Origin: Larix sibirica
Taxonomy: Eukaryota; Streptophyta; Pinopsida; Pinales; Pinaceae
Length of the DNA: 22,635 nucleotides
Direction: 5' to 3'
Assembly (NCBI GenBank): GCA_004151065.3
Contig: NWUY0300047057.1
Location: 1-22,635 of the forward strand
Made by a program: the position numbers and the translations under genes
Shown here: piece by piece, positions 1,706-21,922 of the stretch
How positions within the stretch are numbered: position 1 is the first letter of the stretch
How the letters are laid out: each line of letters begins with the position of its first letter
The notes under the pieces: model-generated
The model's input: the letters and a program-made list of their open reading frames with translations, nothing else
The model's database searches: none
What the model was told of the DNA's origin: nothing

Positions 1706-2400
1706 AAAAACCCCTAGGGCACCCAAAATTTCACAGTTTGAGAGTTGTAAGCAAGATTTTTAAAAATTTATGTTGGAATTTTCAAAATCGTTCCCAAAAA
1801 AATCAAAATTTTCCGTTTGAAATCATAGAAATTTTAGACTACGCGCATCATGCACTCCTTTATTGCACATCTACTTATATGCTCTCATTAAAATTATGTG
1901 ATCCTTTCCCATATAGATACCGATCTTTATCTGCTCTCATTCAAATTATGTGTCCCACTGCAGCTTCTCCAACTCTGACGAGATTCATAAATCAGGTGCA
2001 TTGCTTCCCAAAATCCCCAAGCACCTCGATGGGGTCTATGTTTTACCCTTTAATTATCGATGCAGTCTATGCTGTTAGTCATTGTTGTTGATGTTGTGTT
2101 ACCTAGCTGGTTTTCTAATTTCTATTCAAGGAAACCGGCCTGGGGTAGCATACAACACAAGTCAGTTGTTCTGAAGGTGTGGTGGAATGGTCTTTCCAAT
2201 CGAGTTGTTTTTAGTGTCAATTTTTTCATGTTTTTAGGGTTGATTTTGAAGTTCTTTGGGCTAGTTCTGGTCTTATGCCAGCCAAGAAAGGGCTTCTTTT
2301 GTGAAAATTTGTGATTTTATCTAGGATAAAGTTTACAACTAGCTTGATTTGCTCCCGGCCTAAATGAATTGAAGGTTTTTGTGCAGGTGAACTCTTGGGG
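1706..2400. other. Non-coding stretch, no feature recognised
   Basis: Open frames at 1537-2091 and 2060-2314 on the plus strand show no recognisable domain and have low-complexity composition; the first runs through the N junction. Nothing else identified. Confidence 0.4.
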
Positions 2401-2640
2401 AGGTGAATTTTGGGTTTGTGTGATAATTGCTGAATAATTGATAAAAAATATAAAAGATGGTGTTTACAATGAATGGTGTAGCCCATATAAATAGGTTCAC
2501 ATGGTGACTATTCACCANCATAGTAAAAATATAATTGTTGAATAATTGATAAAATATATAAAAGATGATGTTTACAATGAATGGTGTAGCCCGTATAAAT
2601 AGGCTCACATGGTGACTATTCACCAAAGGGATGTGTCCCT
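2400..2640 (-). promoter_or_regulatory. Probable LTR-type promoter and leader remnant, minus strand
   Basis: Read on the minus strand, the segment has the general make-up of a plant retroelement LTR. There is an AAGGGACACATCCCTT palindrome, then GGTGAATAGTCACC (also palindromic), a TATA-like CTATTTATA element, then ACACCATTCATTGTAAACA and AT-rich sequence. On the plus strand the same element reads TATAAATA (2486-2493 and, in the duplicated copy, 2594-2601), so the transcription direction is not certain. No retroelement protein was found beside it, so it would be a solo or truncated LTR. Family unknown. Confidence 0.35.
2423..2625. repeat. 95-bp duplication flanking a single N
   Basis: Copy one spans 2423-2517 and copy two 2531-2625; both run from ATAATTG.TGAATAATTGATAAA to CATGGTGACTATTCACCA and are about 94 percent identical. 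They are separated by a 13-base stretch that begins with an N at 2518. As at 1650, a near-perfect repeat beside a lone N suggests an unresolved assembly overlap or a collapsed heterozygous site rather than a biological tandem repeat. Confidence 0.9.
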
Positions 2641-4789: not shown

Positions 4790-5555
4790 GGAATCCTTGA
4801 TTAGGAGCGAAATTTGTGTTGTAATATCCAAATAGCAAATTATTTAATTAATTCACCAAAACAATTAATCCCTTTGCTTGTTGATTGCTATACACACCAT
4901 TACTTATACGTTAGCGAATTCTATTTCGGCTCTCTATCACCTTCACATGGTTGTTGTGCAACTTTGATTCAGACTATAATAGTTTTTAATTCCATGTGAT
5001 TGATATATCTCCTTGGCCTTTGTGGCTTAAATGCAATTAGAAAATTAAACACAGTTATAATATTTTCTTCTGCCAGTTTGTGGTGGGATTTTCTTGCCTT
5101 ATGAATATCCATCTTCATGCGTAAGTTCCAACCATTCATCTCTGTGGAGACTTGATTACTTGCCTTACTCTGAGTATGAAAGAGGAGACTACCGAATATT
5201 ACTATTGGAAGGACAGTTGGCCTCCAGACCCATTGTAGCACAAGCCATTATGCCAGTTTCCTTCCCTAGCATTATTGAGTACTTGTCATCCTCATGTATT
5301 GCCTTGTATACGGTTTCTCACAATATTCATGAGCCCACAATAGTCACTTTCGCCATGCTTCCCTATTCTCTTTGGCAGGAGGGAGAATTTCTCCCCTAAC
5401 ATAAGGAATAGGAGGAAGAATTGCTCCTTAATCTCTATATCACCAGGCAGGAGGGCCAGTCATAATCTAGGGGTGAAATTTCCCATTCAAATATCAATAA
5501 TAAGAGATTCTCTGCTTACATCATTTCCCCTCAAGAGCTACCCATTTGCACGGTA
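4790..5555. other. Non-coding stretch with one unassigned 101-codon open frame
   Basis: The plus-strand open frame at 5094-5399 (101 codons) has mixed composition (EYERGDYRILLLEGQ near its middle) but no domain I recognise. Its upstream part overlaps sequence similar to the minisatellite flank near 4605-4680. A perfect short palindrome, GGGAGAATTTCTCCC, lies at 5381-5395. A real gene cannot be supported from sequence alone. Confidence 0.35.
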
Positions 5556-5561
5556 CATTTG

Positions 5562-5655
5562 TACTTGTGGCATTTGCAATGTCCATGTTCATTCTGGGAA
5601 AGCTGCGATGTGTGGGATTTGTTGCGACCAAGGAATGTAGGTGACGAACATGTTA
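5562..5655 (+). pseudogene. Cys-rich segment, copy A (unassigned)
   Basis: Translated in one frame this stretch reads CTCGICNVHVHSGK, then a short gap, then MCGICCDQGM. The same pattern, with many substitutions, recurs at 6378-6470. Conservation of the Cys and His positions and of the CCxQGM ending between diverged copies suggests the segment once coded for a small zinc-binding module or exon. The surrounding frame is quickly interrupted. I do not recognise the family, and no function is assigned. Confidence 0.35.
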
Positions 5656-5924
5656 TGAAGAATCTGTTGATTATTGTCAATGCCATTACTTCTAGGAAAC
5701 AAGTTGTGGTTGGACAATGTGATTGGAGCATTTTGCTAATCATCTAGACATGTCTTGTATTTTTCATATTTAATTATGCTTCTCTACATAAAACCTTTTT
5801 TCCATTTTCAATAATTGTTTAAAAGGATACTTTCTTAATCGATTGTGAAGGATTGTAGAAAGGTTTGGCCATATGTTACATGGGTTTTTTATTTTTTATC
5901 TAGGAAGCAAGGCTTCTTCCATTG

Positions 5925-6062
5925 AATTGGCCCTTGAGTTTGATGCACATAAATTAGTTCATCGTTTTGCTTTGGATAAAAAAGAAACAAGAATCGTCCC
6001 TTTAGATAGGATCCTAGGTTTGATGCACAAAATGAAGTCTTTTGCTCTGGATAAAATGATCC
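5925..6062. repeat. Tandem duplication of about 50 bp, period about 80 bp
   Basis: GTTTGATGCACA(T)AA..TT.....TTTTGCT.TGGATAAAA occurs at about 5937-5984 and again at about 6016-6060, with small indels. It is open in one plus-strand frame (5873-6070), but the minus strand is also open (5889-6077) and neither translation resembles a known protein. Confidence 0.6.
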
Positions 6063-6259
6063 ATTTTTAGGATTCACATCTTTGATATTTATTTATTGGA
6101 AACAACCAAATTTGAAAGTAGGTACCTCCAAAATCCAAAACTAGTGTCATATTTATAATAATAGCTCGACCTTGAATGTGTACAATGTGGATGAACCTTT
6201 AGAAATTTTTATATTAGAATCGGAATCTCAGTTAATCTTGATTAATTTAAATTGTTGCA

Positions 6260-6679
6260 TTGCTTAATATTGAGATCGCTTTCACTTTTCCCATTCCATT
6301 GTTTCAAATTTCAGAGATTGATTTGATGATTGATAATGTATATATATTGTTGAACTGCAAATTTTGTTCCTTTTGTTGTAGTTTTTGCATTTGCAATGCT
6401 CATCTTAATTCTGAGCAAGTTTCCCTATGTGAGCTTTGTTGCGAGCAAGGAATGCGGGTGTGGAACCAAGTTTGTCTTGTGCAGGTTTATGTTACTTATA
6501 TTGGCTTAGATCTATTTCTTCAATATAAAAAAATTGCAGAAGAGGGTGTTTTTCATAGATTTATATTCAAAAAATTGTATATCTTGTTTATATGTTGTCA
6601 AAAAAAGGTTAGATATCATTTTAGATACATGTTTGCAATCTTGAAGCCAGGACAATGTTTTTTTTTTTACAATTTCTAA
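6260..6679 (+). pseudogene. 139-codon open frame holding Cys-rich copy B
   Basis: The open frame contains the second copy of the Cys-rich segment (residues about 37-66; CSFCICNAHLNS, then LCELCCEQGM). Upstream of it is a T-rich stretch ending TTTTGTTGTAG just before TTTTTGCATTTGC, which could be a splice acceptor, so the segment may be an exon rather than the middle of one long reading frame. The N- and C-terminal parts look like read-through of non-coding AT-rich DNA (poly-F near the end). Family unknown. Either this or the copy at 5562 may be the relic of a duplicated exon. Confidence 0.35.
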
Positions 6680-7040
6680 TAAAAATGTTGGATGTTATGG
6701 AATAGTATGACACCAGAAACAAGTTCCCTACAGTATGGATCAAGTATCAATGATTGTCCATTGTTTTTTGTTTGTCCTTTTTCAAAGAACATGTGATAGC
6801 ATAGATATAGATCACTCTATGAACTATGTTAGTATGTATGACATCCATCATGTGTTCATGATTTTTAATATAACTAAAAGTTATTTTCTTGGCAAACAAA
6901 TCCAACATGCCTTGTGGCCATAATAGGGATTTTCCCCCTTGCTGGGTAGAATTCTCACACCTCCTAGTATTTTTACTGCCTGGTGGGAATATATATTTAC
7001 TTGCAGGAATTTGCTACATGTATCTTGTGAATTGTGACAT
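6680..7040. other. Spacer before the tandem array
   Basis: AT-rich with two short plus-strand open frames (6735-6923 and 6889-7089) of unremarkable composition. The second runs into the first array unit. No feature recognised. Confidence 0.4.
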
Positions 7041-8034
7041 TTTTCTAGTGGCATTCAATAGTATGGGTTGGTTGATAGATCGATTGTAGAGATGAGCAGT
7101 GGTTGTGTTGCTAGAAATAACAAGCAACACTATAGAAATTATGTCGTGTGTCATAGATGATAGTACAACATTTATTGTAATGAGGCATGCAATAGAAATG
7201 AGCTCAAGCTACCTTTAGCCATATGATTTGCATAGGTCCGTTGTTTAGCAGTTCTTTGCTTTGAATTAAGATAGTGATTTTTCTTGCAAAAATATGCTTT
7301 TTGACTAGATTATCCCTTCCTTCATCTAGTCGTGAGTTGGCATTTTCACTAGATGCAAAATGAACAAGGAAAAAATTATATTACAATGGTTAGGACTTTG
7401 TGGTAGTAGTTGCTTTGCATGCTTAGGATGTCTTTTCTATGCTCAAAACTTCCAGTACTGTTGCTATGAAAATATGTCATTGTGATTCGATGCATCTACC
7501 TAGTGACCTTTAATAGTATGGGTTGTATGATATATTGATTGTAGAGGTAAGCAGTTTTCTGCTTGGAATTGAGATAAGCCTTTTGCTTCTAAGAATATGC
7601 TTTTTGGATGGATTTGCCGTTGCTTTATCCGATTTCTAGTTGGATTTTTCACCAGACACAAAACAAACAGGGTAGGTATTAGATTGTAATGGCCATGATT
7701 GTGTGCCTAGTAGTTTCTTTACATCCCTAGGCTTTATGTCCTATGCTAAAAAAATTGAATACTTTTGCTATGAAAATATGTCATTGTGAATTGATGCATC
7801 TGTCTAGTGGCCTTTATCATTATGGATTGGCCTTTGATAGCAATCAACACTATAGAAATCATGTTGTATGTCATAGATGATACTAGAACATTTATTGTAA
7901 TGAGGGATGTGATAGAAATCATCACAGGCCATCTTTAGCATACTAGGCCTATGATTTGCATAGGCCAATATGATCAAGTCAAGGCTGATTTTTTTGTCTT
8001 ATGCTCAAAACTTTCAACACTTTTGATATGAAAA

Positions 8035-8345
8035 TATGTCATTGTGAAAGCCTTGATCATAGAACAACACATTTGGCCAAATCATCAAGTCAAATAGGAA
8101 AACAATACAGAATGCATAGAAATGAATGCATTTGACAACTTCTAGGCCTTTGTTTAAAACATGTAGTTTTGTTCTTTATTGATTGCTTCTATGCATGTTT
8201 TTTATTCTCTGGGTCCATTGCATTTTTGCTTTCAATGATCATGTGCTTTTGCAATTGATGCAAGAGATATGCAAGAGATCAAAAGACTTCCACTATTGTC
8301 TAGGTGATTGTTTGTTTGATGCACTTGAAGTCTTGAATCTGTTTT
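8035..8345 (+). repeat. Internally deleted copy of the element's upstream and OTU-start region
   Basis: Bases 8035-8210 (CCTTGATCATA.AACA... through GACAACTTCTAGGCCTTTGTTTAAAACAT) match 10427-10610. Then, after a deletion, 8245-8340 matches the OTU start at 10815-10940 (CTTTTGCAAT..., ATATGCAAG.GATC, AAAGACTTCCAC, GATGCACTTGAAGTCTTG). In the frame beginning at 8300 it reads LGDCLFDALEVL, close to the OTU active-site motif DGxCLFxAL, with only the first Asp replaced. In the main copy (10900-10935) a four-base loss destroys this stretch. So this array piece is a copy of the coding region taken before that damage. Confidence 0.75.
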
Positions 8346-8956
8346 TTGACTAGATTTTCCTTTGCTTCATCCAGTTGCTAGTTGGTATTTTCACTAGATA
8401 CAAAATGAACAAGGCATAAATTAGATTGCAATGGTTAGGATTGTGTGCTTAGTAGTTGCTCTGCATACTTAGGATTTATGTTCTATGCTAAAAAAATTCA
8501 GTACCATTGCTATGAAAATATGTCTGTGAATTCACGAATTTGTCTAGTGGCCTTTTAACGGTATGGGTTGGCTGATAGATCAATTGTAGAGGTAAGCAGT
8601 TTTCTTCTTGGAATTGAGATAGCCCTTTTACTTTTAAGAATCCGCTTTTTGACTAGATTTTCCCTTGCTCTATCTGGTTTCCAGTTGGAATTTTCACTAG
8701 ACACAAAATGGAAAGTGCATAAATTACATTGCAATGGCCATGATTGTGTGCCCTATGGTTGCTTTGCAAGCTTGGACTTTCTGTCCTATGATCAAAACTT
8801 TGAATACTTTTGCTATGAAAATATGTCATTGTGAATTGACACATCTGTCTAGTGGCCTTTAGCAATGTGTATTGGCCTTTAATAGTAAGCAACGCTATAT
8901 AAATTATGTCGTGTATCATAAACAATACTGTAACATTTCCTGTAATGAGGCGTGTG

Positions 8957-10214
8957 ATAGAAATCATCTCAGGCCATCTTTAGCATAGTAGGCATGTGAT
9001 TTGCATAGGCCAATTTGATGAAGTCCACGGCATCAAGACGATTTCATCAGTAAGTAAGTAAAATCTATTTGTTCTTTGTGTATTATACATATTAATTAAG
9101 TTTAGTAAAGAATTTGTTAATTAATTTTAGAGTTGTTATTTAGCAGTTCTCTGCTTTGAACTGAGGTAGGCCTTTTTCTTGTAAGAATCTCGTTTTTTAC
9201 TAGATTTCCCCTTGCTTCATTCAGTTTCCAATTGCAATTTTCACTAGATAGAAAATGAATAGGGAAAAAATTAGATTCCAATGACGAGGAATGTGTATTG
9301 AATCGATCATCTTTTGGCTAGGAAACATTTATTTTAATTGAAAGACTTCGACTACGGTCTGGGTGATTATTTTTTTTATGCACTTGAAGTCTTGAATCTG
9401 TTTTTTGACTAGATTTTCCCTTGCTTCATCCAGTTGCGAGTTGAAATTTTCACCAGACACAAAATGAACAGGACATAAATTAGATTGCAATGCCCAACAT
9501 TGTGTTCTTAGTGGTTGCTTTGCATGCTTGGACTTTGTGTCTTATGCTCAAAACTTTGAATGCTTTTGCTATGAAAATATGTCATTGTGAATTGTTGAAT
9601 CTATCTAGTGGACTTTAGCAGTGTGGATTAGCCTTTAATAGCAAACAACGCTATATAAATTATGTCATGTGCCATAGATGATACTATAACATTTACTGTA
9701 ATGAGGCATGTGATAGAAATCAACTGAGGCCATCTTTAGCATAGTAGGCATATGATTTGCATAAGCCAATTTGATGAAGTCTATGGCATGAATAGGGTTT
9801 TCATCAACAAGTAAGTAAAATCTATGAAAAGAAAATAAGTAAAATCCATTTGTTATTTTTATATTATATATATTAATTAACTTCTATAAAGAATATGTTA
9901 ATCAATTTTAGATATGTTATTTAGCAGTTCTCTGCTTCGAATTGAGGTGGGCTTTTGCTTGTAAGAATCTTGTTTTGGCATGTGAGAGAAATCAAGTTAG
10001 GCCATCTTTAGCAAAGTAGGCATATGATTTGCATACGCCAACTTGATGAATTCTATGGCATGATGAGAATTTTCATTAGCAAGTAAGTAAAATCTATGAA
10101 GAGAAAACAAGTAAAATCTATTTGTTCTTTGTGTATTATACATCTTAATTAACTTTTGTAAAGAATCCATTAATTAATTTTAGAGTTTTTATTTAGTAGT
10201 TCTGTGCTTCAAAT
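8957..10214. repeat. Three copies of a 210-220 bp block with repeated GTAAGTAA
   Basis: The blocks span about 8957-9166, 9727-9946 and 9999-10214. Each has CATCTTTAGCA..GTAGGCAT, TTTGCATA.GCCAA, a GGCAT..., TTTTCATCA, then AAGTAAGTAAAATCTAT..., a TATTATAcATATTAATTAA stretch and a TTTAGAG.T.TTATTTAG tail that meets AG(C/T)AGTTCT. In the second and third copies the AAGTAAAATC part is itself doubled. The block has the outward look of an AT-rich intron (donor-like GTAAGTAA, acceptor-like TTATTTAG), but no flanking exon could be shown. Confidence 0.8.
9300..9400 (+). repeat. Second array copy of the OTU-start segment
   Basis: ATCGATCATCTTTTGG, then ATTTTAATTGAAAGACTTC, then GCACTTGAAGTCTTG align with 10850-10935. 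In the frame of the 9359 codon it reads LGDYFFYALEVL, so the Cys codon of the OTU motif has become Tyr. It is followed directly by an array block (GACTAGATTTTCCC at about 9405), the same joint as at 8345, so both copies come from one rearranged unit that was then amplified. Confidence 0.7.
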
Positions 10215-10686
10215 TGAGATGGGCATTTTGCTTGTAAGAATCTCGTTTTGCACTAAATTTACCCTTGCTTCATTCAGTTTCCAATTGCAATTTTCACTAG
10301 ACACAAAATGGACAGGGTAGAAATTAGATTCCAAAGGCTAGGATTGTGTACTGAATAGTTGCTTTGCATGCATAGGCTTTATGTCCTATGCTCAAGACTT
10401 TCAAGACTTTTGATGTGAAAATATGTCATTATGACTGCCTTGATCATATAACAAGGCATTTAGCCAATTCATCAAGTCAAGTAGGAATGCAATACAAAAT
10501 GCATAGAAACGAATGCATTTGACAACTTCTAGGCCTTTGTTTAAAACATATAGTTTTTTTCTTTGTCCATTGCTTCTATGCATGTTTTGATTCTTTGTTG
10601 TCCATTTTTTTTCAATGATAGTTGTTTAACTATATCTAGCTTTTGACTTGAAAAACTTTGCTATTCTCAGGAGGCTTGCTTTCTAG

Positions 10687-11419
10687 TTGCATACTTTGCA
10701 GTACAAAACTTGTTCTTTGAGATTCGCTTCTCCTGATGATATTGAGTTTCACTTGATACATACACTATGCAATCACTAATTTGATTGTTATTGCAACGTG
10801 ATTCCTAGAGCATGTTCTTTTGCAATCAAAGCAATAGATATGCAAGGGATCGATCATCTTTTGGAGACAAAATATATTTCGATTGAAAGACTTCCACCAT
10901 CATCCGAGCAATTGTTTGATGCACTTGAAGTCTTGACACATTTTTTGTTATTCGTTCATTGAAATAAGGCAAGGAATTGTAAATCACTTCAAAAAAAAAT
11001 TCAACTCTCAACATCCTAATGCTCTCCATTCAGCTAGAACAGAACAGAGCATTGATTTCCTTCAAGAGTTGCATGGTGTGCAAGATGAAAATGCATACTT
11101 GCATAGGTTGTCTTTATCGGCTTCTAATTTTGAAAATGATTATGGACTTGGACTCTGGAGTGATATTTTTTGTATCAAATGATTCTTAAAATGGCTAGAT
11201 GTTCCAGTTTATGTTTGGTCATTGAAAAGAAAACAAAGTCTTTGTGTTCCAATGTCAAAACCAATGTATGTGAACTCAATATTTTGTTCTATGATCAATC
11301 CACATCATCTGGCTATTTTTCTCCATTGTTATCATATAGAGCGCAACAAAATATTATGTCCAACCCTAGAGCATCAGGCATCTCCTCATTTCCAAATATA
11401 TGTTCAGCAATTGATGTAG
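10687..11419 (+). pseudogene. OTU-like cysteine protease domain 1 (broken)
   Basis: Frame +1 holds the N-terminal part (10687-10953, with TAA at 10777) and frame +2 the rest (10946-11419, with TGA at 11180). The N-terminal piece has IPRACSFAIKAIDMQG, then ISIERLPP and LFDALEVL, where OTU proteases have the DGxCLFxAL active-site motif. Here it reads PSSEQLFDAL, so Asp, Gly and Cys are gone, apparently through a four-base deletion. After the shift come IEIRQGIVNHFKKKF, YGLGLWSDIF, WLDVPVYVWSLKRK and INPHHLAI. This resembles the usual OTU layout of Trp-Gly strand, (I/V)YVWS strand and a His near the end. A cysteine protease or deubiquitinase-like accessory role is known by family only. The order OTU-Rep-helicase supports assignment to the element. 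Confidence 0.65.
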
Positions 11420-11421
11420 AC

Positions 11422-12231
11422 ATGTTGTCAATTGAAAATGTATTGTCAAAATAACAACTTTGTCTAGTAGACTTTACCTCTAATAATTTCCATGAGTCGT
11501 TGTTCGAATCATTTTGCACATTGATGGGACAATTTGATGTGATTTGTTTGCGAAAGACAATTGGACAAATGTTTTGCAATTGCTATAATGGAAATGAAAT
11601 TAGAGCCACTGACTGCAACAACAAATATCTTATCAATCATACCGTAGTGAATGAGTAATGCATTGCTTGTGCAAAGGGATTTATTATAAATTTCTCCATG
11701 TTATAAAGACAGGGAAAGATAGAAGGAGGTGACTTTGCATTGCAATGGATTTGCAAATTTTTCAATGTCAATATATATATTTGGAACTTTCAACTTAGTA
11801 CAATTGGAAAAAGGTTTTACTCTACATATCCTTCTTCCAATATAAATTTTCTAATGTGTGCTAATATTGCCAATTTGCATAAGCATTATTGACCATTGCT
11901 TAAAAAACAAGAAATAGATACATTTTCGAACATCATTGCAAATAGCAACGAGAATTTTGTTCAAATAAAAAGAATTGTTGACTCAACAAGAACTATAACT
12001 ACACAAACTTGCAACAATATTGAAAATAGCAATATCATTCAACATGTTCGAAATAGAAAACATAGATCTACACACAAAAGACATTCTATGCAAAAGAGAT
12101 CTTCTTTGCAAAATAGACAAAAGCACCTAGAACAAGAAACTATAGAATTGCATTGTTGCAAAAGAGCAAATAGACAAAAAGCAAAGACTACTTCCAGTGG
12201 CTTCCTTGGAATCAAAATTACGAGACTGTGA
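11422..12231 (+). pseudogene. OTU-like domain 2 and basic linker (broken by in-frame stops)
   Basis: All in frame +1, with stops at 11452, 11656, 11704, 11890 and 12229. The expected active-site stretch reads FHESLFESFC, where DGNCLFESF would be typical, so the Cys position is Ser. Next come VICLRKTIGQMF, then GGDFALQWICKFFNVNIYIWN and, after a spacer, LHKHY followed by a stop and PLL, matching the (I/V)YIWN strand and HYxPL end of OTU domains. From 11896 on the translation is Lys/Arg/Gln-rich with many His and Asn, like the linker that precedes Rep in many Helitrons. The domain parallels the one just upstream (LFDALEVL/LFESFCTL, IRQGIVNHF/LRKTIGQMF), so the two may be an ancient tandem duplication. 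Function by family only. Confidence 0.62.
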
Positions 12232-13110
12232 CATCTAAAGTAAAAACTTCAAAAACATGAACAAATTGCGCCCAGTAGAAGAAAAAAAGACACACAAAGC
12301 CTTCAACTGCAATAAAAACATATTTGAAATTTGATCGAGGACACACTGACACATTCATGTGCTATTTGCAACCGTTTGCAATTTCAAAAAGACATGGAAA
12401 TAGTCGACAATGTTGTGCTACAAAACTATACATATTTAGTGCTAGAAGACAATTCAAAGAAAATTGAACTGAATCATGACGTTTGCAAACAATGCAAGAA
12501 AACTCTGTATTGCGAAAAAATACGTACATTTGCAGTCCCCTTACAAATATGACACAACAAAAAACTTGACTATGTGACAACATTAACACCTTTGGAATAA
12601 ATATTAGTGTCACCAAGAATGGATTTTGCTCAGATACAACAATTAGGATATAAGAAGGCTCATCTTGGACTTACTGGAACAATTATAAATGTGCCTGCAG
12701 ACTTGAAAAAAGTGCAATAGGATTTGTCGAGAAGCTTATCAGATTCACATACAATTGCAATGCTTCTAAAAAGAAAATTGGAATACAAAAATGCATACCT
12801 ATATGGAAATGTTCGACCACACAATGTTATGCTTGCTTTGAATCAATTATGCAATATGTCGCTTTACAAATCTGAAGGTGTTTTCATTGATGACAAATGG
12901 GAATAAATTTTCAGTAGAGACATGCAAAGACATAATGCTACCTTACTAAGTATAGAATCGGGAAGTTCTAGCGACGAGGACACAAAACTAGAAGTTCATT
13001 TTGAAACAATGATACATGGCTATGGACAAGCCAATTTCATAGATGACTCAACAAATCAAATGACAGAAATTACACCTTCTAAAGGATTTCAACCATTGGG
13101 CATTTTCTAG
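12232..13110 (+). pseudogene. N-terminal region of the Helitron Rep-helicase protein (Cys-rich plus DUF6570-like)
   Basis: Still in frame +1. A pair of CX2C motifs (CAIC at residues about 10-13 and CKQC about 53-56 of the 12331 frame) forms a probable zinc finger, followed by KIRTFAVP. After the stops at 12550 and 12598 comes ILVSPRMDFAQIQQLGYKK, then GLTGTIINVPADLKK, a stop at 12718, then DLSRSLSDSHTI, LLKRKLEYKNAYLYGNVRP and ALNQLC. This is the conserved region that precedes Rep in Helitron2 proteins: LVSP, G.IINVP, LPR, LKR..Y...Y and RP..V..AL. A stop at 12904 is followed by an acidic stretch (SGSSSDEDTK). All breaks are single stops without frame change. An ATG is not needed here; this is the inside of a long protein. 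Confidence 0.8.
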
Positions 13111-13600
13111 GAAAATTTTTGTGAAGAGATGAACTTTCCCACTTTGTTTTTTAATCTAGTGAGCCTAATGACATCATTGATAGGTTCACTTATCAACAAA
13201 TATCAAATTGGGATCTATTGCATGAATTAGAATAATTTTCAACACATGATACAATTAATTTTTTAAGGCAGTTCGCGTTCTCATCAATCAAGTTTCAAAT
13301 TATGCATGGATCTCAATTCGAAAGGGAGAGCTAAAAGGAAAAACTCTCATGAAAAAGGACGTAAAATGTAAAAAGAACCTAGAAAAAAATACTAAAATCA
13401 TCAATTGGATACCGTTGTCTTGGAAACATTCGCACTTCCCTTGACTACTTCGAACGCATAAAAAGAGATGTCTTTGCAATGATACGACAACTCCCCCCGA
13501 ATTTTTTCTAACTTTTAGCAGTGCCAAACATCTATGGACTACTTTGCGCAATCCATTTCAAAAACCTTGAAGCAAAAGCTCCAAAAAATTTGACAATCTA
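13111..13600 (+). pseudogene. Central conserved region of the Helitron protein, multiply frameshifted
   Basis: Continuing from the previous stop, ENFCEEMNFPTLF is in frame +1 to about 13150. SSEPNDIIDRFTYQQISNW follows in frame +3 (13155-13305), WISIRKGELKGKTLMKKDV in frame +2 (13307-13395), IGYRCLGNIRTSLDYFERIK and DVFAMIRQL in frame +3 (13404-13497), and TFSSAKHLWTTLRNPF in frame +2 from 13511. These match, in order, the hallmark strings of Helitron proteins upstream of the HUH motif: EE..FP.LF, IRKG..KG, GYR.L..IRTSPDYFE, DVFAMIRQLGPPT.F and TFS.A. At least four indels lie in under 400 bases. This explains why no long open frame is seen here. Confidence 0.88.
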
Positions 13601-14643
13601 GATTTTGACATTACTATAGAATCATTGATAAGACCACATCATGTCATTTGCAGTCACTATTATAGGAACATAATGTTAGCCCTAGGAACCTTGATGTTGA
13701 CTAACAATGAACTATTTGGAGATATAGAGGACTATTTCTCTATTACTGAATTTCAGAGCAGAGGCAATGAACATGATCATGGACTTCTTTGGATAAAAAA
13801 TGCTCCTATATATTGTCAATATCCTGAAGAAGGCATAATCACATTCATGAATCGATATTTGTCTTGTGATTTATCGCTTCTTACCGAGGATTTGGCTAAG
13901 ATTCAAACACACCATCATACAAAGTATTGCAAAAAGTATAGACATTCCAGTTGCAGATTCAATTTACCAATTCCTTCAATGGATAGGGTTGCTATTATGC
14001 ATCCCTTGGAAGTCATTGCAAATAAAGATATTGAAAAAACAAAAGAATTGTTTTCAGCAATAGACAATAAAATTTATTCCAAAAACGTATGCTTTGAAAT
14101 GTTTTTGTCAATTCTACACCTAACCAGGGATGAATACATTGTTCTCTTTTGCCCTTCTCTACCATGTCCTACATTGCTTCTAAAAAGAGATCCAACATAT
14201 GTATGGATCAATGCATTCTCGAAACAAATACCACGTCTATGGATTGAAAATACATATGCACAATTTATTCTAGATGCATATGCAGCAACAACATATTGTA
14301 GCTATTACATTACAAAATGGATCGCAAAATGATTACCACCTTAAAAAAATAAAGTGAGAATGCATGTTTTTTACAATGGTGGAAAAATAGAAACAATACG
14401 CAAGCTTGAGAATGCACTTTTGAATATGCAGCAGATGTCAAGTCAAAAAACCATTTATATTGTTCTTTCCATGCCACTGTATACAACTTATAGGAAAACA
14501 ACAATCATCAACACTGGCCCAGCTGGCAAAAGAACATATGTCCTAAAAAATCCAAAGTTATTAAATCAAGAACCAGATAATTTAGAAAATATTGTATGTG
14601 CATCAATTCTTGATAAGTATATTGCAAGGCCTAGTATGCTTTA
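13571..14643 (+). pseudogene. Helitron Rep nuclease domain (HUH, two tyrosines)
   Basis: Frame +2, open from about 13571 to a TGA at 14330 and then again to 14642. EFQSRGNEHDHGLLWIKNAP holds the HUH metal-binding pair (His-Asp-His at 13772-13780) in the classic EFQxRGxxHxHxLLW setting. Further on, AQFILDAYAATTYCSYYITK carries the two catalytic tyrosines (14294-14296 and 14306-14308) as Y-x3-Y-x2-K. After the stop, IRKLENALLNMQQMSSQ..IYIVLSMPLY and CASILDKYIARP match the C-terminal part of the Rep region. Rep nicks and joins single-stranded DNA at element ends through a Tyr-DNA link. Its active-site residues are all present here, but stops at 14330 and 14342 separate it from the helicase. The stretch beginning at 13625 starts with TTG and is internal to the protein, not a true start. 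Confidence 0.95.
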
Positions 14644-15234
14644 GCATGTATGCTTAGCTGAAATTTGCTTCTTACTACTCATGCTCAAATTCGAGAATTA
14701 GGAAAAGAAAACATGCTTGTATCATTCGATATGTTTGATACAATGAGCATAAAGACCCAAAAAACATTTTTAGAGAAAAAATGATGCTATATACACCATA
14801 TAGAGGAATTGAATATGTTCTTAGAAAGAACTATGCAACATGGTTTGAAGCATATTTGTCACAGAAATTGTTCATAGACCATACTAAATAAAAGTTCATT
14901 GGTCAATCAAAAACAACTTGGGGTGACATTGACATCGCTTCCAAAATGATTGTTTCTAAAAATGAACAATTGTTTATGGTACCAAGATTGCAAGAGGAAC
15001 CTGTTGAGCCTGTTGAATTTGAAAAATATGATATCAAAAATGTTCTAATGCAAAAGATCTTCCCTAGGCAAACTAGACCTAGTTCAAACAATACATTTCA
15101 ATCTACTAAGCAACCCTATGTCATAAGCAAAGATGATTATTATTCCATCATAAAAAATTAAACAAAGACCAACAATCAATAACAAAAGAAATTATAATGA
15201 GAAAGAAAAATAACTCGACTAACCAATTCAATTG
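14644..15234 (+). pseudogene. Rep-helicase linker (broken)
   Basis: Frame +3 carries HAQIRELGKENMLVSF (about 14690-14740) and, after shifts, REKMMLYTPYRGIEYVLRKN from 14772 (the REKLLLY.PWR string of Helitrons), a TAA at 14889, and then the frame from 14946 to 15161 with EEPVEPVEFEKYDI. This joins to NLNKDQQSITKEII (about 15158-15200), the LN.DQ..I. string just before the helicase P-loop. No domain of its own. It shows that Rep and helicase were one protein. Confidence 0.8.
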
Positions 15235-16478
15235 TTCTTGACCGAAAAAGCAAGAACAGGAAAAACATTTGTCGCGAAATCAATTTACCGTGGTTTGTTG
15301 CAATTCTACTACAAAGATATTCAAAGTGACCCCTTGAAAAAAAAGGGCATTGTCGTTACATTTATTTAAAGGGATGCACATAATGCAAATGGTATTACTA
15401 TACATTCATCCTTTCACTTTCCATTAACACTATCAAGGATGCAACCATTAAGCTCTGACACATTGGACTTGCTAAGTAAAGAATTTCAGCAAGTTTGGAT
15501 TTTGTTAGTGGATGAGGTGTTGCTAATTAGTTCTCAAATGATTTGCAGCATAGACAAAAGGTTGGGAGAAATTATGCACACCCCCACGCTTCCTTTTGGA
15601 AATATTGACATCTTATTTTTTGGCGATTTTTGTCAAGCACAGCCTGTAAAGGACTCGTGGATATTTGAACAAGGAAGCTTCCACTTTGGCATAATTCCAT
15701 ATAGCTTTTAGACAAACCATGTTAAATGCTTTTAGCTCATAGAATTAATGAGGCAAGAAGACCTAGTCTTTGTATCCATTTTGAATACAATTAGAGCTTA
15801 TTTGCAAACTGACTTTGACATTGACTACCTAAATAGACATTGCCATAGACCACCTCCAAATGAACCTATGTTTCCTTATCTTTTCTACAAGACCAAGGAC
15901 CTTGAACAACACAATAAAAAAATGTTGACACTAATTGTAAAGTCGTATCCATATACATTGCAGTCCATTGACAAGAAAATAAACACTATAAACATAAGTT
16001 CCTACCAAAATGACAAAGTTGAATCACCAACTGAAATTGTTCTAAAACAAGACATGTTTGTCAAACTAATTGAAGGCAATGTTGCAACTGAGGATGGCCT
16101 TGTAAATGGTGCGGAAGGATTTTCAAACAATACACGAAGGGCATAGTTGACATAGTTTAGATCGAATTTAACCTAGCTTCAGTTGGCACAATGCAAAGAG
16201 CAAAAATTCAACAACAATTTGCAAATAGAATTCCATCTACTTGGACACCCATCACAAGAATAAGTCGACAAATGACATCAACCAATAAGACACACATTGT
16301 TCGAGAACAATTTCCTGTTCAACTAGCATGTTCATGAACAATACATACATCACAAGGCCTTACCATGGAGAGTTTAGCATTCGACCCAAAAGGAGTTAGT
16401 CAGCATGGACTTGTATACACTTCATTGTCTCGTGTCAGAGGCAAGAAGCAACTATATCTCATAAATAAATTGGAATAG
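15235..16478 (+). pseudogene. PIF1-type DNA helicase domain of the Helitron (broken)
   Basis: Frame +1 from 15235 to about 16130, then +3 to 16478. Motif I reads FLTEKARTGKTFVAKSI (P-loop 15241-15267). Two of the usual glycines of GGAGTGKT are replaced, though GKT remains. After a TAA at 15367 come NGITIHSSFHFPL (motif Ia), VWILLVDEVLLISSQM (motif II, DE box), RLGEIM, PFGNIDILFFGDFCQAQPV (motif III region), a stop at 15709, ELMRQEDLVFVSILNTIR, and NGAEGF. In frame +3 the end has FPVQLACS, a TGA at 16335, then TIHTSQGLTMESLAFDP (the SQG(L/M)T motif) and VYTSLSRVRGKKQLYLIN (motif VI, SR). This is the 5'-3' helicase that unwinds DNA during rolling-circle transposition. Four stops and one shift disable it. 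Confidence 0.95.
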
Positions 16479-17201
16479 TCAAACTTCTGCATTTCGTTGA
16501 AAGTATCCGTTGAATTGCATAGACTTCAAACTAAAGCATGTCTACAATTTCAATATGGCCTTCAATCAATGACAAAGAAAGAATGTTTGCTTATATGCTC
16601 ATTGAACACACGACGTCTGCAACTACATGCTGACAATATTGCCAATGACTATGAAATTATGGAAAGCGATATTGTTTGTCTACAAGAAACTCATGCAAAG
16701 TTTTTGCCAAATAATAACCGTCTTGCAAATAAATACCACTCTATTGTTGTGTTTAATATTCATGGCATTGTTATATGTTGTAGGAAAAACATATTGCTCC
16801 AAGATTTTCATAGCTACACATCAAATTTGATTGAAGCAATTGTTTGTGAATTTGAAATTAACAAAACTATTATCAAACTGGCAAATGTATATGTTGCACC
16901 AAATGCACCAATTAAAGAAATTTACACCTTTATCAATAGCATAATGAAAAACATTAACCAAAATGAGCATATTGTGATTGCCGGTGACCTCAAATTTGAC
17001 ATATTGCAAAATTCTAGTTTGCAAAAAGAATTTTATTTTTTCATGAAAACTATTAACTAGAACTTGCATACAACAATTGCAACAACTCCGGCTGGTACTT
17101 TTCTAGATCATTTTTGGACAACTTTTCCAAGCGGCTCTGTCAATTTTCATATTTATGAAGCCTACTGGAGAGCCCATCATTGCATTTGGTTTTCAATCCC
17201 T
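16479..17201 (+). pseudogene. EEP (AP-endonuclease-like) domain fused to the helicase
   Basis: Frame +3, the same frame as the end of the helicase, separated from it only by a TAG at 16476. The N-terminal motif is SLNTRRLQLHADNI (metal-binding Asn), then SDIVCLQETH (catalytic Glu), LANVYVAPNAPI (Tyr), and VIAGDLKFDI where GDFNxD is usual, so the Asn has become Lys (16992-16994). After a TAG at 17058 come TPAGTFLDHFWTTF (Asp) and YWRAHHCIWFSIP, where S/T-D-H is usual, so the Asp is Ala. The fold is that of the exonuclease-endonuclease-phosphatase family, as in non-LTR retrotransposon endonucleases, and a C-terminal copy is characteristic of helentrons. With two key residues changed it would be inactive even without the stops. 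Confidence 0.88.
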
Positions 17202-17498
17202 CTAAAAATATTTGCAAATGCTTTGTTCGAATGAGAAATATATGTTTTTTTTATGAAATAAAAATTGCTCTCTAGCATTCTAGAACAGGAAATATCACTT
17301 CCTTCAAATAACTAGATCAAACAAAATAAGAAAAAAAGGTTAGAGCTCAAAGCACTTGCAAATGCACTGCCAGTTCCATTTCTTCTTGAAGCGATTAAGT
17401 GCAAATAACGTTGATTTCATGTCAGAATATTATTAAGCATGACTATAAACTAAAGACAATTGTCCTTGCAACAGTCTTCAAAATTATGCGATTTCACT
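17202..17498. other. Spacer between EEP and the RPA-like part
   Basis: AT-rich. An AATAAA at 17257-17262 is a possible polyadenylation signal for the Rep-helicase-endonuclease transcript. Around 17340-17405 there is a short open stretch (LELKALANALPVPFLLEAIK) of unknown kin. Nothing else recognised. Confidence 0.35.
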
Positions 17499-18145
17499 AT
17501 GGCCACTGATAGCAGTAGTGAAAACAAGTGTCAGGGGAAAATGCATGAACTTCCAGATAATGACAAGTCAGAAAGGTGATAACGAATTTGCTTCTTGATA
17601 GAGACATGCAATTTTATAGGCCTGTAGCAGATAAGCACTTTTCTAAATTAATTGTTTCCATTCTTATATATTGTCTTTCTTGCCTGTTTCAGAGCTAAAC
17701 AATGCCATTTCCATCGTCCCCTATTTTGCAACTTTGTTTAGGAACACATATAAATGTTTTTGAAGGCGATGTATTGATGTTGTATGGTCCTCCACAAAAC
17801 AAGAGCTCAACTTCACCAAGAAAAATAGAATTGATGCATGTTGATCTAGTTGACAGAGATGGGCAATTAACAATAACAATGAACATGAATGATAACCTTG
17901 TTTCTCGTTTCATGAAGTACTTTACACCTGGCAATAGTGTTCGAATTTCAAATTTTGTCACGAGAAACAAGGGACCATAAGACGGAGCTGATGTTAGATA
18001 TTGCATTGTGTTGGATCAACAAACTTATGTCGAGATAATACCACAGGTTTGCGAGGAGCACAAATTGGCACCAAATACAAATATCTATATGGTATCTCAA
18101 GCTCATAAAACTCTTACTCTGTGGGGTCCATCGCAGCATTTGTAA
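17499..18145 (+). pseudogene. RPA1-like protein, first OB-fold region with a possible leading intron
   Basis: An ATG at 17499 opens a 26-codon frame ending at 17577. A donor-like AG/GTGATA (17575) and an acceptor with pyrimidine tract TCTTTCTTGCCTGTTTCAG (ending 17692) could bound an intron of about 117 bases. From 17702 (frame +2) come FEGDVLMLYGPPQN, IELMHVDLVDRDGQLTI, and FTPGNSVRISNFVTRN, then a TAA at 17978, DGADVRYCIVLDQQTYVEII and TNIYMVSQ, ending at 18143. This fits an OB-fold of the RPA large subunit type: EL..VD.DG, F..G..V.I.NF.V, and later Y.IV....T.VE.I. Plant Helitrons carry such genes, thought to protect displaced single strands. A joined frame from the first small exon does not fit exactly, so the intron is tentative. 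Confidence 0.65.
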
Positions 18146-18512
18146 TTGCATGTGAGAAAAATAACAGAAAATACGAACTCTACATCAAAGATGGGGAAGG
18201 AATACATGATAGCACAACAATATGCTAGTTAGAATTTGAAATTAAACAATGTAATTTTCTCTGTTGATATTGAACTAACAACTTGCAATAAATTTCAAAC
18301 CATTTCAGCTGCAATTAACTAAAATATACAATAATTTGTACACCAAATTACAATAAGAGATAGCATCAGAAGTTCCATCCATGTACATGTTCAAGAACAT
18401 TGTTAGAAATGGCTCAAAAGGGTCTCAGCTACTGCGACTTTCTCAGGCCACATTTGTTGATGTCCTGAATGATGACTATGAAAAAGCACATTTACTTGCT
18501 CTCGTGCAGTAA
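18127..18512 (+). pseudogene. RPA1-like protein, second OB-fold region (fragmented)
   Basis: In frame +1 from 18127: FVIACEKNNRKYELYIKDGE, then DSTTIC and a stop. After an AG-ended AT-rich segment (TTTCAAACCATTTCAG near 18309, a possible acceptor), frame +3 carries SEVPSMYMFKNIVRNGSK and LLRLSQATFVDVLNDDYEK, ending at 18510. The first part resembles the R.L.L.DG.G strand pattern of an RPA OB-fold and the second the NV......LS.S.AT segment before the C-terminal domain. The match is weaker than that of the first OB region and depends on its position between the OB-fold and the zinc ribbons. Confidence 0.45.
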
Positions 18513-19500
18513 AAAAGAAAGGAAAGTATCAACTTACTAGTATTTGTGGCTTCCCTTCACTGATTCCACAATAACTATTGCAAATCCAGTCTAAAATCAT
18601 GGAATTGACATTGTTTAAAACCTAAGCTGCTAGTGAGTTCTTGATGGCTCTTGCTTGTGATGTTTGCAACTGATCAGATGCATACTTACTTCATTGTGTT
18701 AAGATCTTTGCAACGTGCCATGTGCAGCTCATTTCATGATGCTACAAGTTGATTGCACTGTGTTACAATGAAGCAATTGTTTATCATATTTTACAATGTT
18801 TTTTCCAGTTTATGTTCTTCTTAACTTGCAGTGCCATACGTTTACCACTGACATTCGAAGCTATATGATACCTTGTATTTTGCAATCTCTTTTTGGATTT
18901 TACACATACATTGTATATGACCATCATCAACACAGTTGTTCTGAGAAGCAATTTCGTTTATGGATCTTATATTTCTTCTTTGCACACTTTGCAAATACAT
19001 CTTATACTAGACATTGGCATAACTTGCCAAAAGCATTTGCACATATCAATGTTGTTTGCCATTTGCTTATGTCAGTTATATATGCTATTTGATTTTTACA
19101 TTGAATGCTACAAAATGTCAATGTTCTTTGTCATTTGATTGTGCCACCTATGTATGTGCTTAGATTGTGATAATGAATGTTGCAACATGCAACAATCACC
19201 CACAAATGGAATTTGTAATGCCTCATATAAAGCCCAACCGATGATGCTTCAAATTCAATGTGCAAACACTCGCTTAGATACATGTTCCAAACTTCAGCCA
19301 CTCCTGAGTTCTTGATAGCTTTTGCATTTGTTATTTTCAATCAAACCCATGCGTAGTTTCCTAATTGAGCCTAGGTTTTTGTCAATTTGATCGCTATTTA
19401 CAATCAAATTCATGCATTCTTGATGATGCTACAAGGCTTTTGCACATTATTGCAATTGAATCTTCTACTCTAACCATTAACATTACAACCATTATTGACA
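18513..19500. other. Spacer with scattered short repeats
   Basis: AT-rich with no conserved frame. The open frames at 18796-19092 and 18893-19138 overlap in different frames and look like chance. Diverged repeats are visible: TGAGTTCTTGATGGCTCTTGC (about 18633) against TGAGTTCTTGATAGCTTTTGC (about 19305), and GCTATATGATACCTTGTATTTTGCAAT (about 18861) against a block at 19676. This may be a large intron of the RPA-like gene or later insertions. Confidence 0.4.
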
Positions 19501-19504
19501 TCTG

Positions 19505-19743
19505 TGCACCGTTGCTATGATTCCCCTTGCATTTTACAATTGATGTTGGAATATATACAATACTTTGTATTCTGCAGTATGTTAGTAGCTCCTACATGAA
19601 CTTGAAATAACCATCACATTGCTGAGATATATGCACTGTTGTTATGATTCTTCTTGAATTTTTCCGTTGGCATTGCAATCTATATGGTACCTTGTATTTT
19701 GCAATGTGTTAATAGCTTATGCATGAACTTGAAATAACCATCT
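19505..19743. repeat. Tandem duplication, period about 120 bp
   Basis: Copy one at about 19505-19621 and copy two at about 19630-19743 share GCAC.GTTG.TATGATTC..CTTG.ATTTT, ATA.ACAATACTTTGTATT or ATATGGTACCTTGTATT, GCA.T.TGTTA.TAGCT..T.CATGAACTTGAAATAACCATC. A third partial relative, containing ATGATACCTTGTATTTTGCAAT, lies near 18861. Non-coding. Confidence 0.8.
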
Positions 19744-20600
19744 TCCCATAGACAACTATTTGAGCTAAATATAATCAGCAGCAAACAAGTACTATTAGTA
19801 CTTTTCCATTGCTCTTTCCATCACTACTAGTGCTTACCTTTTGATTAATACTTAAACAATACAATGTTGACATTGCATTGGGCACATATTCAATGATTAT
19901 CAGTATTTGAACCAATCTATGTAACCAAGACATCATATCAGGTGTTTTCCTTCAATTTGTAATATGTTCAATGCTTCCAATATATTGATACAGGGCATCA
20001 TTCTCACAGCTTCTATTGATATGCAAGTGCATATTTGTTTTTCACATTTAGAATCGACAACCAATGACTAGCAATAGCTTGCAACAATTGATATCGTGAT
20101 AAGTATGGCCAATGTTGATTAAACAGGATACTATGCTCGATGAACAGTGCTAGCAACTAAACACTAATACAAGCCAAACCTTTGATATGTGATAGCTTTT
20201 GTTCATCCAATCATTTCCCTAATTAACCGTGTTCATTAAGATGAAGCAATAGACATATTGTAATCAACACTATGATAAATCTAAACATACCATAGGTCTA
20301 TCCTAAGCACAACCTTGCAATTTCTATATGTCAATTTCTCGGTTTAGCTTTCTAATCATTTGTTGATGGCGTTTGCTTTTCATGTTTTTGAGGTTCTCTC
20401 CTGCAGTTTTCCATGGTTTATGTGTTGCACTATTGCCATTAATTAAATAATTGTTCTTGTAACCTTTGCATTGTCATTTCTTTTGGGAAATAGCGATTGC
20501 ATTTATTTCTTATGTGATGCAATATTTATTGTGTTCAGATTGCACACTATTTTTTCTTACTTTCTTGATATATGCTTCTAGCAATACAATTAACCATATG
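19744..20600. other. AT-rich spacer upstream of the zinc-ribbon segment
   Basis: No open frame with recognisable content. The end of the stretch, ..CATATGCATCTTGCAG at about 20595-20610, is a plausible splice acceptor directly before the conserved zinc-ribbon coding segment. The region would therefore be intron if the RPA gene was spliced. Confidence 0.4.
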
Positions 20601-20607
20601 CATCTTG

Positions 20608-20955
20608 CAGGTCTAAGGAATCTTGAAGGAAAAAAATGTCTTCTCACCTCCATTTCACAAAATTTGCAATAGGTGCAACCAGGCAATGCTCTATAGATTT
20701 CCAGAATGCACGGCCTGCAAACAGAACACACTGTGCATATATGAGCATTTCTTGGAGTGTATTCTTGAAACAAATGATGGCACAATGAAACTGCCACATC
20801 TGCAACAATACTACCCAGCAGTTGCAACAGTCAGCTATGAAAATTACTCCAAAAGCATCTCGTCAACAGTTTTCCACTTGCGAAAGCTTTGCCTTTGTGC
20901 TCTTTTTACACTGACTACAAACAACATTATCACTGAAACCAACAATGCTCAGTGA
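20608..20955 (+). pseudogene. RPA1-like C-terminal zinc ribbon, copy 1
   Basis: Frame +2 from about 20617 to the TGA at 20953. NVFSPPFHKICNRCNQAM is followed by CTAC to give CX2CX10CX2C (first Cys codon 20665-20667), and then IYEHFLECILETNDGTMKL, which fits the ..Y...L.V.D.TG part of RPA1 C-terminal domains (OB-fold DBD-C with its inserted zinc ribbon). An in-frame TAA at 20614 just after the putative acceptor CTTGCAG/G suggests the segment is an exon in another phase or is damaged. The residues after the ribbon (KLCLCALFTLTTNN) are less conserved. In the family this domain binds ssDNA. It lies downstream of the OB-fold parts on the same strand. Confidence 0.68.
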
Positions 20956-21021
20956 TCATCACTTCCTTTTTTGCAATTTTGCATAAATCCATGTATATTG
21001 AAAATAAACCCTTGCGCTGTT

Positions 21022-21048
21022 ACCATTTTGTACATGTTGCAAAATGGT
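21022..21048. other. Perfect 9-bp hairpin after zinc-ribbon copy 1
   Basis: ACCATTTTG and CAAAATGGT are exact inverted repeats around a 9-base loop. A hairpin near the 3' end is typical for Helitrons, but no CTRR end follows within 15 bases, so a terminus role is not supported. See also the hairpin at 21723-21758. Confidence 0.5.
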
Positions 21049-21583
21049 GGTTGATTTTGAAGATGGTAATTGAGATAATCAAATTAATTTGGGTATGCAA
21101 AGTTTTGAACCTTTTCTTTCCTTAACATATACACAATTATGTTTATATGACTTTATGCAAATTCGTGACTTTTAGTTGCTTTTTGTAGCTTCAAGCCATT
21201 ATATATGCCTTATATATGTATATGGTATTTAGGCCAATAGCTGCACATGCCACTGTTGTTTGTCATTTTAAAATAGCATTTGACAATGCTTGGAGCTATT
21301 GGAAAGCTATTTATACAATTTCACAACTTTATATTCTGCATTTAAAATCTTAAATGTTGGAATTCTTGCTCATGACCATTGATACCAATTTTTACTCTTT
21401 TAATCTAATGGCTCTTGTCGTTGTCTGCTTTTAGATTTAGCATGTCTTTTTTTTCTACTATATTGCAACAACCATTAAAAATAATGTTTCTTTAAGGCTT
21501 TTGTCATTTGTGCCTTCCATGCCTTGTAGATTTTACAGTTTTCCTCTTTAGTCAATTTGCAAGTGCAAGCAATATTGAAAACA

Positions 21584-21716
21584 AATAATGTATTCTCGCG
21601 TCCATTCCGTAGAATCTGCAATAGTTGCAACCAGCCAATGTTGTATACCTTAGTAGATTGCACAACTTGCAAAGAAAGTGCAATGTCCAGATACAAGCAT
21701 TGCTTCTTTCAATGAA
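21584..21716 (+). pseudogene. RPA1-like C-terminal zinc ribbon, copy 2
   Basis: Frame +2 reads NNVFSRPFRRICNSCNQPM, then CTTC and KESAMSRYKHCFF before a TGA at 21713. The spacing CX2CX10CX2C (first Cys codon 21617-21619) and NVFSxPF..IC..CNQ.MLY are the same as in the copy 952 bp upstream, at about 55 percent identity. Flanking non-coding sequence is also shared: GG.TATGCAAA.TTTTGAAC lies downstream at about 21091 in copy 1 and 21840 in copy 2. So a segment of about 950 bp, including this domain, was duplicated in tandem. Amino-acid conservation with base divergence hints that both were once under selection. Confidence 0.65.
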
Positions 21717-21722
21717 ACTTTT

Positions 21723-21758
21723 GGCACTCTTTGCACATTGTTCATCTTGCAAAGTGCC
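21723..21758. other. 10-bp hairpin with a 2-base bulge after zinc-ribbon copy 2
   Basis: GGCACT(CT)TTGC pairs with GCAAAGTGCC (21749-21758) around a 14-base loop. It lies at nearly the same place relative to the zinc-ribbon segment as the hairpin at 21022-21048, but the left arms are not at homologous positions, so independent origin is possible. Confidence 0.45.
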
Positions 21759-21922
21759 ATTGTTTCAATTTTGCTCATTTTGAAGTTCATACTTACAGAT
21801 GCGGTACACAATCTCTTTTTGAGCTGACAGACCTAATTTGGCTATGCAAACTTTTGAACTTCTCTTTCATATATATATATGATTTTTCAACTTTGTTCTG
21901 CTTCTATGCATTGATCTACATG

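Follow-up and report, generated by a model that had tools for sequence, protein, structure and literature searches.

Paired OTU-like domains and an RPA-like gene in a probable, long-decayed land-plant helentron family

The region from about 10.8 to 21.7 kb of the window (the whole stretch of DNA analyzed, 22,635 nucleotides) is best read as a single decayed copy of an old land-plant helentron family, and we put the probability of this reading at roughly 0.86. On the plus strand the window carries, in order, two OTU-like domains (OTU-1 and OTU-2), an HUH Rep, a PIF1 helicase, an EEP endonuclease, and a gene with two OB-like segments and a zinc ribbon. Including a CxxC region between the OTU-like pair and Rep, this order on one strand recurs in the fetched relatives, in keeping with the initial annotation, which had placed the modules in order on one strand with an RPA-like part downstream. 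The window copy itself is dead, as its translation and frame segments contain frame shifts and in-frame stops. The features are:

7025..10619, no strand assigned: array of tandem repeats to the left of the element (self-blast)
10865..11347, + strand: OTU-like domain 1, frame-shifted, with the catalytic-Cys block degraded in the window copy (tblastn)
11446..11955, + strand: OTU-like domain 2, a single frame with stops, Cys replaced in the window copy (frame segment; profile match to OTU-1)
12358..12500, + strand: CxxC ... CxxC region between OTU-2 and Rep, also in other copies, of putative function (translation)
13571..14329, + strand: HUH Rep, with EHDHGLLW and a YCSYYITK two-Tyr block (Helitron_like_N)
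~15229..16490, + strand: PIF1-like helicase, frame-shifted (PIF1 Pfam; own-genome DNA matches)
16479..~17200, + strand: EEP (APE-like) endonuclease, in the helicase frame in the family's ancestral frame (Pfam; frame continuity; C134 ORF)
17705..18535, + strand: OB part of the RPA-like gene, with two OB-like segments and then one more segment (blastn; marginal OB-fold Pfam signals)
18536..20586, + strand: spacer of ~2 kb with tandem repeats, from the OB part to the zinc ribbon (blastn and tblastn comparisons)
20587..20967, + strand: C-terminal portion of the RPA-like gene, resembling a zinc ribbon (CxxC...CxxC) (tblastn; frame segment)
21557..21705, + strand: partial second zinc-ribbon stretch, 72% identical to 20605-20753 (self-blast)

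The number of loci in their own genome at which these modules turn up is too large for chance. Of 14 sequences searched with seven module probes, 6 match all seven, colinear and on a single strand (tblastn), and in the remaining eight whichever probes matched are also in order; relatives collected from the same genome, a check proposed in the initial annotation, keep the order OTU-OTU-Rep-PIF1-EEP-RPA-like in the fetched ones. Helitron_like_N matches the window at ~13379-13789 (E 6.1e-9) and PIF1 at 15229-15762 (E 5.3e-12), and we take EHDHGLLW and YCSYYITK to be the HUH and two-Tyr motifs of Rep. There are 157 Rep matches in the genome, most of those listed containing stops and some partial ones lacking them (e.g., C12351 and C7341), and 41 PIF1 DNA matches.

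The HUH Rep plus PIF1 helicase expected of a helentron are therefore present, and the EEP lies fused to the Rep/Helicase C terminus in the ancestral frame, a hallmark of helentrons; together these bear out the original helentron-type assignment. A canonical plant Helitron (Helitron1) would have no EEP, and here there is one. Exo_endo_phos scores just below the Pfam cut-off in the window (E 1.5e-4 and 7.4e-5), and Exo_endo_phos_2 matches 6 of 24 frame translations at E≤1 (the window and seven copies, three frames each), the best at 3.4e-7. The endonuclease named in the initial annotation is upheld. A single open reading frame in C134 carries both the PIF1 C terminus and the EEP; against the PDB its helicase part finds the PIF1 family (1.9e-8) and Helraiser (0.0013), and its EEP part a LINE-1 endonuclease (0.11) with unrelated matches at similar E. 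When the EEP of the window was searched against the PDB as a single sequence, only unrelated chance matches came back. Among the profiles originally proposed for checking, Helitron_like_N and PIF1 thus matched, Exo_endo_phos and OTU (the latter in relatives only) stayed below cut-off, and Rep_fac-A_C was silent at these loci.

Codon-phase comparisons show that Rep-PIF1-EEP was formerly one frame, and that OTU-1 to EEP was likewise, chained over Rep, a frame of roughly 2,100 codons. Across 10 copies of Rep-PIF1-EEP, variability peaks in the same codon phase in all 38 windows of the alignment, and stops are least frequent in the coding phase in 14/14 blocks. From OTU-1 to Rep (six copies), one phase prevails in 29/33 windows, the four exceptions counting against a single frame, and stops are again least frequent in it in each of 12 blocks. 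The OB part of the RPA-like gene keeps a single phase in 16/16 windows across columns 300 to 1425 of eight copies. Two seemingly open frames were rejected, one of 1680 aa in C13598 containing an N gap and one of 1152 aa in C134 spanning N. Every fetched copy is broken or gapped and none is intact, and the family therefore looks extinct, or kept alive by some copy not yet seen.

OTU-1 of the window is 53% identical to that of C931 (E 1.8e-41, tblastn), and a 135-column alignment of the OTU-1 profile with that of OTU-2 scores E 1.9e-4, with an hhalign probability of only 48%. Less decayed copies retain OTU-like Cys and His blocks; C134 OTU-2 keeps both the GNCHDSLFESI and the HSHFHPLL block. NCLMHLKS, which in frame 3 had looked like the active site of OTU-1, was rejected when alignment showed it to be a frame-shift artefact. 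The initial claim of two OTU modules stands as two OTU-like domains, but Pfam OTU matched no own-genome copy tried: not the window, not the 24 frame translations of the window and seven copies, and not eight phase-read members for each domain. PF02338 does match three of four OTU-1 database relatives (P0004, P0005, and P0006), at E 4.4e-4, 4.0e-4, and 0.013, all below cut-off, and the fourth gives no match. AlphaFold models of OTU-1 and the OB part were unusable (mean pLDDT 36.8 and 31.7).

The gene downstream of the EEP is conserved in position. The window OB part matches at 52% (E 4.9e-47, tblastn) and the zinc ribbon at 43% to that of C14192 (E 6.4e-25, tblastn). By blastn the OB part lies 3' of the EEP in 8 of 11 copies, with C5634 matching in two pieces and C931 only to window position 17780. 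The spacer between OB part and zinc ribbon is far shorter in C10836, C13479, C11522, C7716, and C1090, and is 1.7 kb in C3034. Position and linkage of the RPA1-like OB folds and zinc ribbons described initially are thus upheld, but their RPA identity is weak, and the label is plausible by layout, without support of any curated model. It is possible, if rather unlikely, that the gene is some other zinc-ribbon OB-like or unrelated helentron ORF and not an RPA relative. Consistent with that, none of the 22 own-genome Rep_fac-A_C matches falls on the contigs listed for the RPA-like gene, which is accordingly not RPA70-like by this model; PDB searches gave chance matches or none; a database search with a 382-column alignment yielded 5035 candidates and no homolog at E≤1; and hhalign of the zinc ribbon with the Rep_fac-A_C-positive set gave E 0.027 and a probability of 1.8%. 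Kinship with RPA is favored, in contrast, by the cysteines of that alignment, which are roughly in register, by an OB-OB-CxxC..CxxC layout that we take to resemble RPA70, and by the marginal Pfam signals on the OB part, where three of seven families are OB folds (DUF223, 0.032; tRNA_anti-codon OB, 0.051; POT1PC, 0.082; each in 1/8 members). RPA has also been reported in helentrons (PMC4067079).

The genome containing the window contig is 618 Mb and has ~100 or more decayed relatives of the element. Its plant-like character, suggested at the outset, is borne out by the NAC family (PF02365), with 31 exon-level matches on 18 contigs and none in 14 controls. The radial-spoke family PF04712, used in an attempt to narrow down the plant group, matched neither here nor in any control and is therefore uninformative. 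Contamination of a plant assembly by animal, alga, or oomycete sequences is a concern, as PMC4067079 could not exclude it for its own plant hits, and no plant gene shares a contig with a copy where NAC contigs were compared. We nonetheless consider it very improbable, given 112 Rep loci over ~108 contigs, several of them long enough for matches to lie past position 100,000, and 11 fetched copies that are roughly 65 to 86% identical and decayed, as after long residence. Alignment scans with Rep or OTU-1 found no relatives in viral contigs or other genome contigs.

The RPA-like part belongs to the helentron-type element, as originally inferred, on the grounds of genome-wide linkage, colinear fetched copies, and inverted arms around the modules. 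At 78 of 112 RPA-like loci a same-strand EEP is present upstream, at a median distance of 1.66 kb, and at 51 a Rep is, against 3 and 0, respectively, in wrong-arrangement controls; in C11150 and C1090 everything from Rep through helicase and EEP to the RPA-like gene lies between the arms. A helentron stopping after the EEP beside a separate RPA-bearing plant Helitron is scarcely credible: flowering-plant Helitrons with RPA genes are known (PMC4683698), a separate Rep_fac-A_C-positive set exists in this genome, and 34/112 loci lack both an EEP and a Rep upstream at the cut-offs used (including C9840, whose Rep is 496 bp upstream and thus under the 500-bp minimum), but the single arrangement of the linked loci, the colinearity of divergent copies, the enclosing arms, and the absence of the Rep_fac-A_C matches from the contigs of the RPA-like gene all oppose it. 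Inverted arms are also present in C9840; they are complex, with A and B units in tandem on the right side. Helentrons are expected to show subterminal inverted repeats, a 3' palindrome, and a flanking T; exact termini, a terminal palindrome, and an insertion or target site were not found in the copies compared, and a clean left end at C13479:1617 was rejected, since C1090 and C11522 agree further leftward.

Published helentrons join the EEP to Rep/Helicase and encode OTU proteases and RPA in further ORFs, of which some are carried only now and then (PMC4067079), and the endonuclease is often paired with an OTU domain (PMC5148889). The module combination, initially thought unusual and possibly undescribed, is therefore less odd than claimed; it is unusual, though, that the host is a plant, that the OTU domains form a tandem pair, and that the RPA-like gene is so divergent. 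Animal helentrons such as those of a mite and Nematostella share Rep-PIF1 with a C-terminal EEP and are reported with OTU and RPA as further genes; their subterminal inverted repeats have a candidate counterpart in the inverted arms here. Two OTU-like domains in frame upstream of Rep go unmentioned in the part of that source consulted (PMC4067079). This family further differs from them in its land plant host, an RPA-like gene missed by Rep_fac-A_C, and unmatched termini. Helitron2 (Chlamydomonas and others) clusters with helentrons (PMC5148889) but is described as coding for just one Rep/Helicase ORF that lacks an endonuclease (PMC4067079). The Mothra group of flowering-plant Helitrons, which has PHRPA (PMC4683698), likewise combines a plant host with a single-stranded DNA (ssDNA)-binding gene linked to RepHel elements; this family differs in having EEP and OTU. 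The same source restricts PHRPA to monocots and dicots and gives helentron RPAs a separate origin.

The outstanding point is a many-copy helentron family in a land plant. Few plant helentron hits have been reported, and these were not separable from contamination (PMC4067079). With helentrons best known from animals and described as mostly absent from plants, ~100 or more decayed plant copies would widen the host range and are material for dating and for the question of inheritance versus transfer. We give even odds to the reading that an old and independent branch of helentrons inhabits land plants, or one lineage of them at least, and encodes one large OTU-OTU-Rep-PIF1-EEP protein together with a divergent ssDNA-binding protein of its own, gained independently of the PHRPA of flowering plants. 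The family would add another rolling-circle element with a single-strand-binding-like gene.

Movement was presumably by rolling-circle transposition, in which Rep would nick one strand and remain attached via its tyrosines, PIF1 would unwind the nicked strand, and the RPA-like protein would coat the displaced single strand, with the EEP perhaps nicking the DNA of the target or of an intermediate. The paired OTU domains may act as a cysteine protease or deubiquitinase, whether to cut the large protein or to counter its turnover by the host, which makes protein cleavage and deubiquitination the two activities to tell apart.

Neither Rfam models at the gathering cut-off nor a tRNA scan matched anything in the window. 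Units of the repeat array left of the element include pieces of the OTU-1 start, with 8312-8336 identical to 10912-10936 and 9302-9395 similar to 10849-10936 (self-blast).

We conclude, with a probability of roughly 0.86, that the stretch holds one land-plant element of helentron type, which has a pair of OTU-like domains and is long dead in this copy. Plus-strand frames of the window match Pfam profiles for Helitron_like_N (E 6.1e-9) and PIF1 (E 5.3e-12), and Exo_endo_phos gives a match slightly below the Pfam cut-off. The window is contig C10461 of a 618-Mb genome that also contains 31 exon-level matches to NAC family PF02365, which we take to be a plant marker, on 18 contigs, with none of 14 controls positive. 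These matches agree with the initial annotation in placing a helentron-type element in a plant genome. We drew on parts of PMC4067079, PMC5148889, PMC4683698, and PMC13286980, and no helentron family in land plants was found in the titles and abstract openings that our literature search covered; the HELIANO paper lies outside that scope, and we do not claim absence from print. The mechanism proposed for the element would be one drawn by analogy.

The RPA-like gene, lying downstream of the endonuclease (EEP) module, had been proposed to belong to the same element rather than to a neighbor, and its linkage across the genome supports this. Among the matches listed genome-wide, EEP lies upstream in the same orientation at 78 of 112 RPA-like loci, at a median distance of 1,660 bp, and is wrongly arranged at 3; Rep is upstream at 51 of the 112 and wrongly arranged at none. 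At 34 of these 112 listed loci both EEP and Rep are absent by the cut-offs used, although one of the 34, on contig C9840, has Rep 496 bp upstream. The RPA-like part follows EEP in 8 of 11 related copies from the same genome. When these copies, the window, and contigs C134 and C14192 are considered together, 6 of the 14 sequences carry all seven probes in order along a single strand, and in the remaining 8 the matching probes are likewise in order. In C11150, inverted arms at 18.8 to 19.9 kb and 27.2 to 30.8 kb flank Rep (23601), helicase (23826), EEP (24701), and the RPA-like gene (26103), and in C1090 inverted arms at 2.6 to 3.5 kb and 12.5 to 12.9 kb flank everything from OTU-1 through the zinc ribbon. 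Stop-free RPA-like matches at C786:32794-33330 and C5351:62910-63452, which are preceded by neither an EEP nor a Rep match, are perhaps RPA-only derivatives.

The ends of the element are less sharply drawn. A right-arm unit also occurs at the left, inverted, in C1090, C11150, and C9840, with several matches ending near one query point, and tandem units are present on the right side of C7716, C8272, C11150, and C9840. Near the shared stop point the left and right arms differ, yet the copies of each side remain alike around it, and it is therefore not a clean terminus. True termini were not found in the arm comparison, which included C1090, C11150, C9840, C7716, and C8272. To the left of the element, window positions 7025 to 10619 form a tandem array with units of about 300 and 750 nucleotides; because it includes pieces of the OTU-1 start, the array seems to have grown partly from the element's 5' region. 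Farther left, positions 5559 to 5649 and 6376 to 6466 are 77% alike and each translates as a cysteine-rich segment, with no Pfam match in the plus-strand frames of the region.

Relatives are abundant in the same genome, with lower-bound counts of at least 41 DNA matches for the helicase, 157 for Rep, 149 for EEP, and 151 for the RPA-like gene. We examined 11 copies, then C134 and C14192, plus the arms of further copies. Identity among the 11 copies is about 65 to 86% in blastn pieces, and among their frames of at least 150 amino acids without N, none is open for more than 238 amino acids. Stops are present in most of the Rep matches listed, and several partial matches are without them (e.g., C12351 and C7341). 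Long open frames in C13598 and C134 were discounted, as both cross N gaps. Two old copies contain near-identical internal duplications that are either recent or assembly-made: oriented positions 5314-6598 and 6872-8156 of C10836 (98.5% identical), and 342-3605 and 3607-6870 of C5360 (99.8%).

The decayed copies retain the imprint of an ancestral reading frame. Across Rep-PIF1-EEP in 10 copies, the same codon phase is the most variable in all 38 windows, and in the first 13 blocks of 300 columns the coding phase has 5 to 26 stops per block, versus 61 to 187 and 40 to 88 in the other two; the last, short block has 10 versus 17 and 11. From OTU-1 to Rep in six copies, one phase is common to 29 of 33 windows and has the fewest stops in 12 of 12 blocks, and OTU-2 and the CxxC region bracket three of the four out-of-phase windows. 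Joining this alignment to the Rep-PIF1-EEP one gives the single frame from OTU to EEP. One ORF in C134 contains both the PIF1 C terminus and EEP. The OB part of the RPA-like gene, compared in eight sequences, likewise keeps a single most-variable phase in all 16 windows over columns 300 to 1425.

For the doubled OTU module, a search with the OTU-1 profile recovers four proteins from the database; three of them have PF02338 as their best match (4.0e-4 to 0.013, below the Pfam cut-off), and one of the four relatives (P0005) continues past OTU-1 into what by eye is an OTU-2-like start. An alignment of the OTU-1 and OTU-2 profiles with each other spans 135 columns, with a probability of 48% and E 1.9e-4. 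Neither domain has a Pfam match in the decayed copies tried, and OTU profile searches of PDB gave no matches. The RPA identity of the downstream gene is weak: the Pfam OB-fold matches are marginal, the 22 Rep_fac-A_C matches in the genome all lie on contigs other than those listed for the RPA-like gene, and hhalign against nine Rep_fac-A_C places gives E 0.027 and a probability of 1.8%. Given this weak identity, we use "RPA-like" as a layout name. L047 to L052 and L054 mark a second multicopy RPA-like set, Rep_fac-A_C-positive and with stops, that possibly comes from another Helitron group of the same plant.
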